Part shown: positions 19,906 to 58,413 of the stretch, piece by piece | How positions within the stretch are numbered: position 1 is the stretch's first letter | Layout of the letters: every line of letters starts with the position of its first letter | Assembly: GCA_021292165.1 (NCBI GenBank) | Contig: CM037880.1 | Coordinates: 207,850,255-207,914,254 of the forward strand | Source: Shinisaurus crocodilurus | Taxonomy: Eukaryota; Chordata; Lepidosauria; Squamata; Shinisauridae | Length of the DNA stretch: 64,000 nt | Direction of reading: 5' to 3' | Program-made: the position numbers and the translations under genes | The notes under the pieces: model-generated | Databases searched by the model: none | Told to the model about the DNA's origin: nothing | The model's input: only the letters and a program-made list of their open reading frames with translations

Positions 19906-21520
19906 TATGCTTCTATTAACGTAGCATAAAAATTACAGATGTAGCACAAGAAACCACCAAATCATGTTCCCAAATAATCATCCATCAGTGTATACTGTCA
20001 TAAAAAACTACCCATTCTGTAATGCTTATCATTAGCATTGCTGGCCTTCTACATGAGAGCATGAGATGCCCTTGTTTCAAATGTGAAGCCTATATTTACC
20101 ATTCTGGAAATATTTGTGACTCAGGTAAGGAAAAATAAATTATTGATCTCATCAGTCGAAACACATACCCCTTATCTAATTCCTACTAGCATGAAACTTA
20201 GGACTCGGCTGGTAAATTTAATATAGGTACTATTGTCCAATCTTAAACATAGAGTGAAACCCAATTGCTAAGTGACACATTGCTTCTCCTGCAGGTGGAG
20301 GGCAAGGAGCTGAATTATTTTTGTGGTGTTTAAATAGTTTCCTGAACAGATATATTGATTTCCATAATGCCGGAGATGACATAAATTATATTTCATGCTG
20401 GAATTCTGCATGAAGATCTGCATCGCAAGAAAAGTAGACATAATTTATTGTTTTATTTTACGGCTCAGATCGAGACTTAAATGTTACCTTCTAAGCATGT
20501 TCCCATTAAAAACAATCTACATAATCGAATTAAACTAATATAATACTGCCAAGTTAAATAAAAAGAACTATTCTCATAAAAAAGACCAGGATCCCACCAC
20601 TTTTATGCCACTCTTCAGCTAAATTGTGTATTAAAATGCCCATGTGCCAAAAGCACACAAAAAATGAGGCAGGGAACAAGGAAGGAAGAAGCAAGCCTCA
20701 AATACGGCACCTTGATTCATACATGAGACTGCATTTTTTTTTTAAAAGGTGTTAAGGTATTCCTTGCTCCTTTCCTCTTTCACTGGTTTATTGGGGAGTA
20801 GCAGTCCAACACCTGGAGGCCACCACGTTGGGGAGGCTGGTCTATTTCATAGATCCCCAAATATGGTGTTAGGACAGAAGGTATACACTGTTCAGGTATA
20901 CACTATGTCAGACCCATTGAGAGAATTCACAAAGAAGAGAGACATATCAACAGGCTTGGGGATACCCCAAGCGGTTTGCCGAAGTACAAAAAATCTTTAC
21001 GGAAAAAAAGCCTAAGGATGTGCATTCAGAGAACCACCCCAAGACACCAAAGCCAATACACGAATCCCATATTCACATGGGAGTTCTGTAGTTTCATATT
21101 TGGAAGGAGCCTCTGAATCATGCTAGAAGGAGCTCAATTCTTAATTGGTTCAGCAATTCAGTTCACTTATGGTCCAAACATAATTTGAGAATTCTTTTAA
21201 AAATATTTGCTTTTTCCTGAAGATTCTAAATTGTACCTGATTACATTGGTTGTGGTGACAGTTGCACATTATTCATACATTGCCTTAAAATGTAATTCTG
21301 TGCATATTTTGCTGCCAAAGAAATGTTAAGGGAAATTATCTTCAATTCGTAATACATGCAAGGATTCCAGGCTAGACAAATGCATATTCTGAACCAACTT
21401 GGGCAGCATCACTAGCTTGAGTATGTTAGTGTAGGAATATTGAGGAATTTGATCTTTGAGAATTCCAGTATTTACTGATCTGATCTGATCCACACATCTC
21501 AGACTAATATACAACTCACA
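19906..21520. other. intron sequence, nothing recognised
   Basis: AT-rich and partly low complexity. No domain, RNA or named repeat could be supported. Confidence 0.35.
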
Positions 21521-21583
21521 GTGCAAACTTAAGCATGATTACTCAGAAGTAAGTCCACTGAGTTCAATTTGAGAGGAAATGCA
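21521..21583 (+). mobile_element. partial AATCCTATGCA-family element
   Basis: gattactcagaagtaagtcc and actgagttcaatttgagagg match the body of the copies at 50341 and 53937. The right end is lost. Confidence 0.45.
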
Positions 21584-31908: not shown

Positions 31909-32195
31909 CAGGGCCAGTCCAAGGCATTTTACTGCCAGAGGTGAAGGACAAGATGGTGCCTCTCCTCGCTCCATACAAAAGTCAACCAGACTTGCAGTTG
32001 AATTTTACTTCAACAATAGCAATGGGACAGCATTCTCTGCTGCACCTGAGGACAGCAGGCTAGTTTAGGCAGTGCAGGGCAGGCCACATGGTACACACAG
32101 TTCTGTCCCCCAATAACTTGTCACCCCATCCCACCTCACAGCATCTGCCACCTCAGGTGGCTGTTTCACCCTGGCTAATGGTAGGGCTATCCCTG
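31909..32195. mobile_element. hAT-type MITE, 287 bp, with TSD
   Basis: Termini CAGGGCCAGTCC and GGGCTATCCCTG. Flanking octamers TTCCTGAA (31901-31908) and GTCCTGAA (32196-32203) agree at 7 of 8 positions. The left terminus shares CAGGGCCAGT with the elements at 38145 and 56666. Confidence 0.8.
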
Positions 32196-37612: not shown

Positions 37613-38144
37613 AACCATGGTTTAGGTCAGGGGTCCCCAAGCTTTTTCAACTTAGACCCAAGTCTAACTGGGTCACTTCAGAGATATTTGTTGGCATTCC
37701 CAGGCAAAGCAGGATTCCCTGCAAATTGACCAGAACCAAATCCTGACCTTCCTGAAACTTGTGAGCAATTCGGCTCTTCAGAGGACTGTATAAAAGCAGG
37801 CACTGTCTCTGCAAAGATTTGCTAGTTTATTTTACTTTTCCATACATGGAAATGCTGGAGGGAAGAGGGAGAGGAGTCAAGTGACTGACAGGTCTACCTT
37901 TTAATCACAGGGAACAGTTTAGCAATCACAGTGCTTCAAGGAGAGATGTATATACCGTATGTATATACTGTATATACTGTAGTATATACTGCTTTGCTTA
38001 AGCCTGCTCTGTCATCCATTAGTTCTGTTTCATCTCAGGAGGACCATTTCAAGAGCTGTGGTGGAGTTGTTTGTGTGTGGCTTGTGTACCTTCTTGATTT
38101 CCTGTCCTTCCAACCAATCTTCATTCTTGCAACCAGTCCTTATT

Positions 38145-38310
38145 CAGGGCCAGTGCTACCATTAGGCCAAGTAGGCAGCTGCCTAGGGCGCAGGGCTAAA
38201 GGGGGCACCAGAAACGCCTTGAAAAAAAAATACAGCGCTCTCAAGTGAGAAGGGGGCACGCTAAATATCTGATCTTGCCTAGGGCACCAAACTGCATTGC
38301 ACCGTCACTG
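38145..38310. mobile_element. hAT-type MITE, 166 bp, perfect TSD
   Basis: It begins CAGGGCCAGTGCTACC and ends GCATTGCACCGTCACTG. The flanking 8 bp TCCTTATT is identical (38137-38144 and 38311-38318). Both ends are near copies of the ends of the large element at 56666-57829: ggcagctgcctagg, gggcacc, and ctaaatatctgatcttgcct. It is a small deletion relative of that element. Confidence 0.9.
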
Positions 38311-38931
38311 TCCTTATTCCAACATCGCATTCATATTTTTTTCAAATTCTTTGTTTTCCATTTCAGGCCATTCCTTCAGACTGTGATCCTTTCTCTTAAA
38401 GTTGTTTCATTTCTTGTTATTGTTGTTTGTTGGTCTGTCTTGTTAGAACCCAGTTGCATAGGCAGGGCCACCTCCCTTTCCCACTACCACTACATTTGGG
38501 CCTTAGTTTTATAGGTTAGGTTTCATTTTGACTCTAGTGCTATGTTCTCTCTTCTTTTTTTACTAGCGTGTATCAGCAATTTCTTACACTACTTCAGTGT
38601 TCTGTCTGTCTGCAGTATTTGAGGTGTGTGGGTCTCTTAGTATGTTATGTAAATGTGTTTGCACCCTGTTATTTTTACTTTATACACACACACACTGCTG
38701 TCAGTGACCTATTATGCACAAGCTCTCTTGCTGTCATTCCCTCATATTTCCTTTCCTGTAATATATCTTTATGTTGTTGCCAACTAGTGGTAAAAGGGCC
38801 AAAGTATTTCTTTTAGAAAAGTTGAAAATGAGCATGCTCCAGGCTTGTGCTTTTGAGTCTGGTTCCAAGATGGATGTCAAACTGAGAACTGTATGAAGAA
38901 ATAGACTTGGGATGTGTGAGGATTTCATTCA

Positions 38932-39235
38932 GGGGTGGAAGTCTGGCGAACTTGCTGGGCTCGACGCCACGAACTCTGTCCCACCTACCTACTTCCCTGG
39001 CTCGACTTGCGTTCTCCCGAGCTGAACCAGGGGAGCGAGTTCCAGGTTCCTGGCGGGCCGCTTTTTACGTAGAAAATGGCGTAAGATACGCCAAAAATAG
39101 GTGCAATTTGTGCAAGCTACACAAATTGTGGCCACTATTAATGTATTTTACGCCATTCTCTATGTAAAAAGCGGCCCGCCGGGAAGCCAGAAGCTTGCCA
39201 AGCCAGAGGTGGGTCAGGTCCCTGGAGGGCCACCC
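38932..39235. mobile_element. palindromic element with TTTACGTAGAA core
   Basis: gcgggccgctttttacgtag is inverted as catgtaaaaagcggcccgc-like sequence at 39158-39180. atggcgtaagatacgcc faces attttacgccattc. A related copy is at 52390-52705. The outer ends are not securely defined. Confidence 0.6.
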
Positions 39236-50340: not shown

Positions 50341-50511
50341 AAGCAGCCCAATTCTACACATGTCTACTCAGAAGTGGGTCCCATTGAGTTCAAGTGGGCA
50401 TAGGGTTGCAGCCTAACAGCACTGCTCTATACGTGTCTACTCAAAAGTGAGTCCTACTGCATCCAATGGGGCTTACTCCCCGGAAACTGGGTACAGGATT
50501 GCAACCTAAAA
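50341..50511. mobile_element. two adjacent AATCCTATGCA-family elements
   Basis: 50341-50422: cagcccaattctacacatgt...gggcatagggttgcagcct. 50423-50511: gcactgctctatacgtgtct...gtacaggattgcaacct. Both contain actca.aagtgagtcc and the sequence for a g(g/c)ttcaa-type middle. Confidence 0.65.
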
Positions 50512-53936: not shown

Positions 53937-54051
53937 CAGTGCCATCCTGTGCATGTCTAGTCAGAAGTAAGGGCCATGGAACTCAACAGGTCTTAATTCT
54001 GAGTTCAATGGGCCTTACTCCCCCGTAAGAGCTTATAAGACTGCAGCCTAA
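53937..54051. mobile_element. AATCCTATGCA-family element with internal duplication
   Basis: gtgccatcctgtgcatgtct...cttataagactgcagcct, with the middle (aact/gagttcaatgggcctta) partly doubled. Confidence 0.55.
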
Positions 54052-55682: not shown

Positions 55683-55877
55683 AATTACAGAGCAGTTCTT
55701 GTGGGAATCCTGGAGTTCCACCCAAAGGTGTCGTATATGGAACAAGGTTTGATGTTGGTGACAAAATCCGATACAGCTGTGTGACAGGATACATCTTGGA
55801 TGGGCATCCCCAACTCACCTGTATAGCCAACTCAGTAAACACAGCATCCTGGGATTTTCCAGTTCCTATCTGTAGAG
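55683..55877 (+). CDS. CSMD3: CSMD3-like exon: complete Sushi (CCP) domain
   Basis: This 195 bp exon has a clear polypyrimidine tract and acceptor (tgttttcttttatag, ending 55682) and a donor (gtaag from 55878). It is phase 1 at both ends, so it is a symmetric domain-sized exon. Translation gives ELQSSSCGNPG... to ...WDFPVPICR. It shows the four Sushi cysteines (SSCGNPG, IRYSCVTGY, QLTCIAN, PVPICR) and the conserved Trp before the last cysteine. Spacing is that of a complete complement control protein module. The exon follows the CUB-end exon at 219-331 in the expected CUB-Sushi order. I see no frameshift or stop. Together the two exons show that the + strand gene is intact here, and that everything between them is intron. 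CSMD3 is preferred from remembered paralogue differences; CSMD1 or CSMD2 are the alternatives. Confidence 0.88.
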
Positions 55878-56657: not shown

Positions 56658-56863
56658 CTTCCAGTCAGGGCCAGTGCAAGGCAGTTTGGTGCCCTAGGCA
56701 AGATCAGATATTTAGCGCCCCCCTCCCACTTGAGCCCTCCCTCCTTCACTCCAGCCCTATGCCCATTATGAAATAAAAGTCAATTGGCAAACCTCAGCAT
56801 ATTTACGTGGAAGTAAGCCCCATGGAAATTAATAGTATCAACTTTTCAGTAGATTTGGCTGAT

Positions 56864-56972
56864 CGGTGGCTCAGCTGCTCCGCTTCCCCAGGCTAACCTT
56901 CGCCGCCTGGCTCTTGCTGCACCACCTTGGACCCCCCCCCCCCCATGGCTCTGGCGTCCTCCTTCTTGACAG
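56864..56972 (+). pseudogene. BMPER: BMPER exon 1 fragment, left arm (sense +)
   Basis: On the + strand this encodes the end of the BMPER signal-peptide exon: QLLRF, then [15 protein letters not shown], a C-run, then [11 protein letters not shown] consensus donor gtaagg follows at 56973. BMPER (crossveinless-2) is a secreted BMP-binding protein with five von Willebrand C domains, and exon 1 carries its signal peptide. The hydrophobic AAWLLL stretch is the signal core. The C-run (13 here, 11 in the other arm) breaks the frame between signal core and ASSFLTG. About 33 bp of intron follow the donor before antisense exon 2 begins at 57017. BMPER identity rests on my recollection of the protein. 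Confidence 0.85.
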
Positions 56973-57016
56973 GTAAGGATGGGCACGGGGATGTTGAGGG
57001 CGGGGGTGGGTGGGTC

Positions 57017-57102
57017 CAGGCAAATGCACATTATGCACGGATTGTCTGTGATAAAGGGGATCTGTAGAACTTCTCCCTCATTTTCACATTTGGCAACAGA
57101 GC
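57017..57102 (-). pseudogene. BMPER: BMPER exon 2 copy, left arm (sense -)
   Basis: This is an 86 bp exon-sized block reading, on the minus strand, [16 protein letters not shown] then [12 protein letters not shown]. That is the start of the first von Willebrand C domain of BMPER. It is preceded by its own acceptor (ttctcatacag). The first two bases complete the glycine codon opened by exon 1, so the splice phase is preserved. It is the inverted partner of 57185-57270. Reading minus from 57449, one meets exon 1 with donor, then this acceptor and exon, in correct order and orientation. Confidence 0.88.
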
Positions 57103-57184
57103 CTGTATGAGAATTTAAAATGATAAATTCATTTTCCATTGTGGACAGTGAGCAAAAAGTATTAATTTTTAAATTCTCATACAG

Positions 57185-57270
57185 GCTCTGTTGCCAAATG
57201 TGAAAATGAGGGAGAAGTTCTACAGATCCCCTTTATCACAGACAATCCTTGCATAATGTGCATTTGCCTG
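57185..57270 (+). pseudogene. BMPER: BMPER exon 2 copy, right arm (sense +)
   Basis: The acceptor aaattctcatacag ends at 57184. The exon is 86 bp (2 bases plus 28 codons) and has no stop. It encodes the CENEGEV...DNPCIMC cysteine pattern of the first vWC domain. After the exon the sequence changes at once to the antisense of the exon 1 donor region (57271-57314). It differs from the left-arm copy at about one base (gcaagg versus gcacgg). Confidence 0.88.
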
Positions 57271-57314
57271 GACCCACCCACCCCCGCCCTCAACATCCCC
57301 GTGCCCATCCTTAC

Positions 57315-57449
57315 CTGTCAAGAAGGAGGACGCCAGAGCCATGGGGGGGGGGGTCCAAGGTGGTGCAGCAAGAGCCAGGCGGCGAAGGTTAGTCCGGGGA
57401 AGCGGAGCAGCTGAGCCACCGCTCGGAAGCTGCCGGAGAGCCAGAGCAT
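57315..57449 (-). pseudogene. BMPER: BMPER exon 1 with start codon, right arm (sense -)
   Basis: On the minus strand an ATG at 57449-57447 opens [34 protein letters not shown] in consecutive residues. This is a typical signal peptide and matches the start of BMPER (MLW-SG...). After an 11-base C-run the frame must shift to read [10 protein letters not shown] up to the donor (GT at 57314-57313). The right arm alone keeps the true start and about 270 bp of GC-rich 5' flank (57450-57720) with (GCT)n and (GGA)n runs, so this strand carries a possible promoter. The single C-run slip prevents a correct signal peptide to vWC reading frame. Confidence 0.85.
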
Positions 57450-57720
57450 CGTCCCCTGGAGATGAGCACTCGGGTTGTTGCTATTGTTGTAGCTGCTGCT
57501 GCTGCTGCTGAGGGAGAGAGAGCAGGGCTGAGCGGCGTGTGGAGGAGGAGGAGGAGGAGGAGTTGCTGCTTGTTGCTGCTGGGGATGCAGAGGAAGGAGG
57601 GAGCGACAGAGGGCAGAGAAGGTGGGAGGGCTTTGCTGGCTGCTCTTGCTCGCAGTCCGGGCCGAGCTTTGAGGCGCTCTCCTGCCCACTGGCCCCTCCT
57701 GAGCTGGATATGGGTGGGCG
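57450..57720 (-). promoter_or_regulatory. captured GC-rich BMPER 5' flank / 5' UTR
   Basis: This lies upstream of the minus-strand ATG at 57449. It is CpG-containing and GC-rich, with purine runs (ggaggaggagg) and gctgctgctgctgctg. By position it would be the BMPER 5' UTR and proximal promoter. Promoter activity is inference. Confidence 0.5.
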
Positions 57721-58009
57721 GCGGGAGGGTGGGGGGAGATGGTTTTTTCCCCCAAGGCATTTCTGGTGCCCCCTTTAGCCCGGCGCCCTAGGCAGCTGCC
57801 TAGTTTGCCTAATGGTAGCACCAGCCCTGCTTCCAGTAAGATTTAAGTAAGCCCAAGTCTGTCAATCTACATGAATTTGGAATGGATACACCAGACTGAT
57901 CGGACTTGGGCTGCAATATTTTGCTGTGGAGCTTTATGTTGCTTGAGCTAAGGTGGTAAGATAAAGCAAATGTCACTCTGTTGACCATAAGAACATTTCC
58001 AAAATCCAT

Positions 58010-58162: not shown

Positions 58163-58413
58163 GAGAGCCAGTGTGATGTAGTGGTTAGAGTGTTGGACTG
58201 GGACTCAGGAGATCCGGGTTCTAGTCCCTGCTCGGCCATGAAATTCACTGGGTGACTTGGGGCCAGTCACTGACTCTCAGCCTAACCTACCTCACAGGGT
58301 TGTTGTGAGGATAAAATGGAGAGGAGGAGGATTGTGTAAGCCACCTTGGGTTCCTTGCAGGAAAAAAAGGCGGGGTATAAATATAATAAATATAATAAAT
58401 AAATAAATAAATA
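58163..58413 (+). mobile_element. tRNA-derived SINE with LINE-like tail
   Basis: gagagccagtgtgatgtagt, ggttagagtgttggactggg (box A region), gatccgggttctagtccc (box B), then cacagggttgttgtgaggat and aaaggcggggtataaatata with an (AAATA)n tail. The best-preserved copy in the window. Confidence 0.9.

Follow-up and report, generated by a model that had tools for sequence, protein, structure and literature searches.

The window, by which we mean the whole stretch of 64,000 nucleotides of Shinisaurus crocodilurus DNA that was analysed, contains a non-autonomous hAT-type element of 1164 bp (56666..57829) downstream of an exon of the CSMD family. This exon (55683..55877, plus strand; its start, either 55683 or 55691, was read by eye) ended 788 bp before the element and matched the Pfam family Sushi (E 5.3e-8). 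Its best named protein matches were CSMD3, with E-values inflated by the repeated sushi domains and identities of up to 98% (mammals 98%, a single snake sequence from Naja naja 87%, some fish sequences named CSMD3 down to 60%). CSMD1 and CSMD2 were considered as host genes and rejected: 7 of 93 matches were so named, and these were 62-68% identical versus up to 98% for the sequences named CSMD3. Judged by these matches, the element sits within a CSMD3 intron, in agreement with an earlier note on this DNA that had spoken of a CSMD3-like intron. A tRNA-derived-looking SINE, presumably similar to the Sauria SINEs of squamates, was located close downstream of the element (58165-58400). This SINE and the best BMPER matches of the cargo, from lacertids, would point to a squamate source, which the identities of the CSMD3 exon by themselves do not. 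Elsewhere in the window, a short inverted repeat was apparent by eye at 39050-39180 (GGCGGGCCGCTTTTTACGTAGA..., with its mirror near 39150).

Boundaries and family of the element

The element begins with CAGGGCCAGTGC and ends with GCACCAGCCCTG, so that its termini read CAGGGC.../...GCCCTG; CAG termini are typical of hAT transposons. Sequence comparison identified an exact target-site duplication (TSD) of 8 bp, CTTCCAGT, at 56658..56665 on the left and, identical, at 57830..57837 on the right. The probability that two fixed positions show such an 8/8 match by chance is 0.25^8, approximately 1.5e-5. The element thus has two hAT characteristics, an 8-bp TSD and short terminal inverted repeats starting with CAG. 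The inverted ends are short, agreeing at 11 of the first 14 positions, and the family membership of the element rests on a relative within the window rather than on long terminal inverted repeats (TIRs). This relative, an empty copy of 166 bp on the minus strand (38145..38310), has its own exact TSD (TCCTTATT at 38137-38144 and 38311-38318), and each of its halves corresponds to one end of the element: the left end (69 bp, 56666..56734, plus strand) was 88.7% identical to 38240-38310, and the right end (77 bp, 57753..57829, plus strand) was 92.2% identical to 38145-38221. A run of T from 57743, seen by eye, may place the start of the right end a few bases before 57753. Between the ends lie 18 bp in the empty relative versus 1018 bp in the element, and the transposon sequence lost from the element amounts to 18 of 166 bp (11%) as judged by this single relative.

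These data substantiate the hAT-type element and the exact TSD that had been claimed earlier. Other copies with the same ends and different TSDs had also been named as a test of that claim; the relative at 38145-38310 is such a copy, but it carries no cargo. A more diverged short hAT-like element was observed at 31909-32195, starting with CAGGGCCAGTCC, ending with ...CCCTG and flanked by a TSD matching at 7 of 8 positions (TTCCTGAA / GTCCTGAA). Its first 28 bp were 86% identical to the element described here (E 1e-5) and its last 24 bp matched weakly (79%, E 0.07). When viral contigs were scanned with 36 bases of the transposon end as a pattern, no matches were obtained.

The cargo is derived mostly from BMPER

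Most of the approximately 1 kb of DNA between the transposon ends comes from BMPER and represents two parts of that gene: (i) exon 1 together with its presumed upstream DNA and 44 nt of intron 1, and (ii) a large part of exon 2, preceded by the acceptor end of intron 1. The joined exon 1 and exon 2 peptide, a query of 73 aa read with the in-frame length of a poly-C run, matched 103 of 129 candidate proteins at E <= 0.001, and 100 of these were named BMPER; the other three were hypothetical or uncharacterised proteins (P0077, P0094) and a kielin/chordin-like protein (P0082). The top match was BMPER of Lacerta agilis (85% identity over all 73 aa, E 1.9e-29), two snake sequences near the top were 77 and 73% identical, and the human protein was 69% identical. 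In the PDB, two entries for Crossveinless 2, which we take to be the BMPER orthologue, were matched (best E 3.1e-13). Since a Pfam search of the 73-aa peptide found no family at E 0.1, the identification relies on the protein and PDB matches and on an alignment with five relatives. In that alignment, similarity to BMPER extended over exon 1 and exon 2 and ended at ...CICL, beyond which all five relatives read N-K-E-V-T-C and the element diverged. The exon boundary agreed both with the continuity of the protein (G|S-V-A-K) and with GT...AG splice borders. Another protein with vWC domains (chordin-like, KCP) was considered as the source and rejected, such a name occurring in 1 of 103 matches (P0082).

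A retrocopy was likewise rejected, as intron borders are present in the cargo. The proposal of the earlier note that exons 1 and 2 of BMPER had been captured with genuine splice flanks, from genomic DNA and not by retrotransposition, is thus upheld: the exon peptide, when searched against proteins, gave BMPER and not another gene as the best match, a gtaagg donor and a ctcatacag acceptor bound a 212-bp GT...AG interval, and intron DNA flanks the exons.

The cargo is a palindrome of two inverted pieces

The arrangement of these exons is that of a large palindrome (56863-57423) with arms of approximately 256 bp. An alignment of the arms over 259 columns contained 4 substitutions and 5 gap columns. 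Two of the gap columns reflect the length of the poly-C run (13 vs 11) and three are at the ends, and one of the four substitutions is at the outer edge of an arm. The longest exact inverted match is 104 nt. Arm A (56863..57118, plus strand) runs from part of exon 1 through the donor and 44 nt of intron 1 into antisense exon 2, followed by the intron 1 acceptor end; arm B (57167..57423, minus strand) is its reverse complement except for the 4 substitutions and a poly-C run of 11 rather than 13. The arms are separated by a loop of about 48 nt (46-48; 57119..57166, unstranded). When folded as DNA, the palindrome had an energy of -357.7 kcal/mol, versus a mean of -90.6 (sd 5) for shuffled sequences; as RNA, the corresponding values were -573.1 and -206.6 (sd 6.25). 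None of 100 shuffles reached the observed value in either case.

On the minus strand, the coding part of exon 1 starts at the first ATG and ends at the gtaagg donor (57315..57449), with a frame break in its poly-C run. Exon 2 on this strand (57017..57102), with the ctcatacag acceptor directly before it, is truncated after ...CMCICL. The plus strand contains the tail of exon 1 (ATGGCTCTGG...TTGACAG, 56945..56972; 56945-56978 with the gtaagg donor that follows) and, again directly after ctcatacag, the truncated exon 2 (57185..57270). The acceptor end of intron 1 included in the arms is 18 nt long. Because each arm joins exon 1 and its donor to antisense exon 2, the two BMPER pieces are mutually inverted, and because this joined piece is duplicated in reverse, each strand reads exon 1, a 212-bp GT...AG interval and exon 2. 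Rather than one contiguous capture, the exons are therefore two pieces of BMPER in opposite orientation. The plus strand had previously been read as a captured exon 1-exon 2 unit; the letters and the splice flanks of that reading are correct, but the segment is not contiguous and its exon order is a by-product of the palindrome.

Two further parts of the cargo lie outside the palindrome or extend beyond it. The BMPER start codon (first ATG) is present in single copy, as is the G+C-rich DNA that precedes it, both on the minus strand only (57449 and higher). From its position, we infer that this upstream DNA (57450..57752) is the putative 5' UTR or promoter-proximal DNA of BMPER. On the other side, between the left transposon end and arm A, there is a filler (56735..56862, unstranded) that is neither transposon, as judged by one relative, nor recognised BMPER sequence. 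Segments of 48-74 bp within it showed weak similarity (66-71%) to a repeat dispersed in the window at 50436-50502, 21509-21556 and 53941-54013 (E 1.3e-4, 0.003 and 0.003, respectively), so perhaps a third source was copied. The three matched segments themselves appeared to be diverged copies of a dispersed repeat of the AGTAAGCCCCATTG... type.

Fold-back chimeric molecules are a known library artefact, and the near identity of the arms is what would be expected if the palindrome had arisen in sequencing or assembly over a simpler captured piece. We consider this unlikely. The arms differ by four substitutions and in poly-C length, and the loop is not palindromic over its full length. Moreover, even if the palindrome were set aside, the join between exon 1 and inverted exon 2, together with the transposon ends, would still demand a capture event.

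Capture before or after insertion

The palindrome arms, if they were identical at the start, provide an internal clock for the capture, similar to paired LTRs, which can be compared with the age of the insertion; with such a clock, the question of whether capture preceded or followed the jump can be tested at a single locus. The arms differed from each other at 4 of 254 ungapped sites, and 12 of 146 sites differed between the transposon ends and the empty relative (Fisher p = 0.002 with an arm denominator of 257; 0.01 without CpG-adjacent differences). Read literally, these values make the cargo the younger of the two and so favour gap filling within the inserted element rather than a jump after capture. 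This single comparison suggests such an order provided that the arms began identical, and gene conversion between the arms could mimic a recent duplication.

Two routes to gene-carrying elements have been distinguished in a survey of animal Pack-TIRs (Tan et al., PMC8277862): most single-copy cases were explained by gap filling with template switching in a resident element, and multicopy cases by fork switching followed by transposition (FoSTeST). A course of the second kind, in which the chimera was made elsewhere, near BMPER or at another element, and was then moved whole into CSMD3 by a hAT transposase, has a fair, though lower, probability for the present element. It would account for the exact TSD that flanks the element. 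BMPER and CSMD3 are separate genes, and in the survey multicopy Pack-TIRs were distal to their parents, with 160 of 281 unique Pack-TIRs (56.9%) located within 15 kb of theirs (PMC8277862); the G+C richness of the cargo is also a tendency of the multicopy cases (PMC8277862). The lower divergence of the arms (4/254 vs 12/146) speaks against such a course by suggesting a cargo younger than the insertion, an objection that is weakened in turn by the fact that gene conversion or subfamily differences could account for the gap in divergence. The earlier proposal of capture followed by mobilisation into the intron is one possible order; the low divergence of the arms fits a cargo gained after landing at least as well.

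Proposed origin of the cargo

Our preferred reading, to which we assign a probability of roughly 0.85, is that a hAT-type element in a CSMD3 intron carries mostly two inverted and joined pieces of BMPER, probably gained through break repair with template switching and fold-back. A break or a stalled fork inside the element would have been repaired with the cargo copied in the process. The repair polymerase would have left the transposon and copied BMPER, switched to the opposite strand at exon 2 and continued into intron 1, and then snapped back on its own product near the AATTTAAA stretch, such that the freshly made product was recopied. The filler would have been gained thereafter and the transposon rejoined, or the whole series may have run in the reverse order. 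A single episode of this kind would require at least three switches, namely from transposon to BMPER, from the side of exon 1 to the opposite strand at exon 2, and the snap-back; the filler would represent one more.

We infer one repair episode with template switches because the modest loss of transposon sequence fits an internal break and because the arms enclose a spacer, as in fold-back formation. In a study of fold-back inverted duplications (PMC3907307), inverted copies around a single-copy spacer were described as the signature of this process. The size of the transposon gap counts against gap filling to some extent: the 11% observed here, measured against one relative, exceeds the published median of 4.6% for gap-filling Pack-TIRs (PMC8277862).

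Coding and regulatory potential of the cargo

Canonical donor and acceptor sites occur on both strands of the cargo, and spliced readings from the second ATG encode 94 aa on the minus strand and 85 aa on the plus strand. In addition, the CpG observed/expected ratio over the upstream DNA (0.48 and 0.42 in two 200-bp bins) was elevated relative to the window (0.22), and transcribed Pack-TIRs are known (PMC8277862). On these grounds the cargo might be regarded as a working mini-gene, with the BMPER promoter driving a minus-strand transcript or the acceptor being used for a CSMD3 exon, a possibility that we rate as very improbable from the sequence features. Translation from the true BMPER start loses its frame within the poly-C run (11 C on the minus strand, 13 in arm A), so the native signal peptide is severed from the remainder. 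Exon 2 is truncated and reads on into antisense exon 1, and a simple consensus scan after exon 2 found two donor-like sites on the plus strand and one on the minus strand, none with a full gtaag. Given the broken frame and the truncated exon 2, no BMPER-like secreted product is expected. The 85- and 94-aa readings, which begin at the inner ATG and end in antisense exon 1, are probably meaningless, and the captured BMPER fragment is most likely inert now. Transcription from the BMPER promoter side would oppose the direction of CSMD3.

In CSMD3 pre-mRNA, the cargo is predicted to form a very stable hairpin of approximately 250 bp that would match BMPER exons 1-2. If such a hairpin were processed or edited, it might dampen BMPER in trans, which would make it a vertebrate gene silencer built by a transposon; this idea is the most speculative of those considered here, and its chance of being correct is slight.

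Comparison with known gene-capturing elements

TIR elements carrying host gene pieces had been regarded in the earlier note as described mainly in plants. This view is outdated since the survey of Tan et al., published in 2021, which listed 370 Pack-TIRs across 100 animal genomes, including 208 of the hAT class (PMC8277862). One example from this work is a frog case in which a 291-bp piece of the CAPSL 5' UTR is carried in hAT-N8_XT, with three copies having distinct TSDs (PMC8277862). The element described here has two of the features by which Pack-TIRs were recognised: two ends of one TIR element enclose approximately 1018 bp, within the range of 100-5000 bp allowed in the survey (PMC8277862), and the cargo is no retrocopy, since its exons are still flanked by intron DNA, namely the gtaagg donor with 44 nt of intron 1 and, on the other side, the ctcatacag acceptor. 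The survey also called for a unique parental copy of the cargo elsewhere in the genome; here the putative parent, BMPER, is identified from protein similarity. Like the animal hAT Pack-TIRs of that survey, it holds host gene DNA with introns between its ends, shows a small transposon gap and involves capture of 5' UTR or exon sequence (PMC8277862). Unlike these elements, whose median cargo was given as 224 bp, it carries about 1 kb in two opposed pieces that are inverted and duplicated (PMC8277862).

This difference bears on detection. The survey pipeline demanded a cargo of 80-120% of the length of the parental copy and would probably discard the present element, because its cargo is an inverted duplication of two inverted pieces (PMC8277862). 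The main text of that report mentions no palindromic or hairpin cargo and no lizard, anole or gecko (PMC8277862), and a palindromic cargo of two inverted pieces was not found described among the open-access literature matches listed.

Several other systems share individual properties with this element. As a non-autonomous DNA transposon with host coding DNA, it resembles the Pack-TYPE and Pack-MULE elements, which are described as plant elements (PMC8903248), whereas the element reported here is from a vertebrate. Turmoil-1 of Caenorhabditis elegans (PMC2572040) is another transposon of an animal in which inverted repeats hold coding sequence of the host; its coding sequences lie in its own inverted terminal repeats, whereas the element described here has an internal inverted repeat that consists of cargo. 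In having inverted copies around a spacer of normal copy number, the cargo is similar to the fold-back inverted duplications of PMC3907307, but those are large chromosomal events and the arms here are of approximately 256 bp inside a transposon. Gene-capturing hAT elements are already known in animals; what is unusual about this one is its palindromic cargo of two pieces. Surveys that require one colinear parent would probably overlook such rearranged multi-piece cargo, which, as the present locus illustrates, a vertebrate hAT element can carry, rather than being limited to a simple copy of a single stretch.
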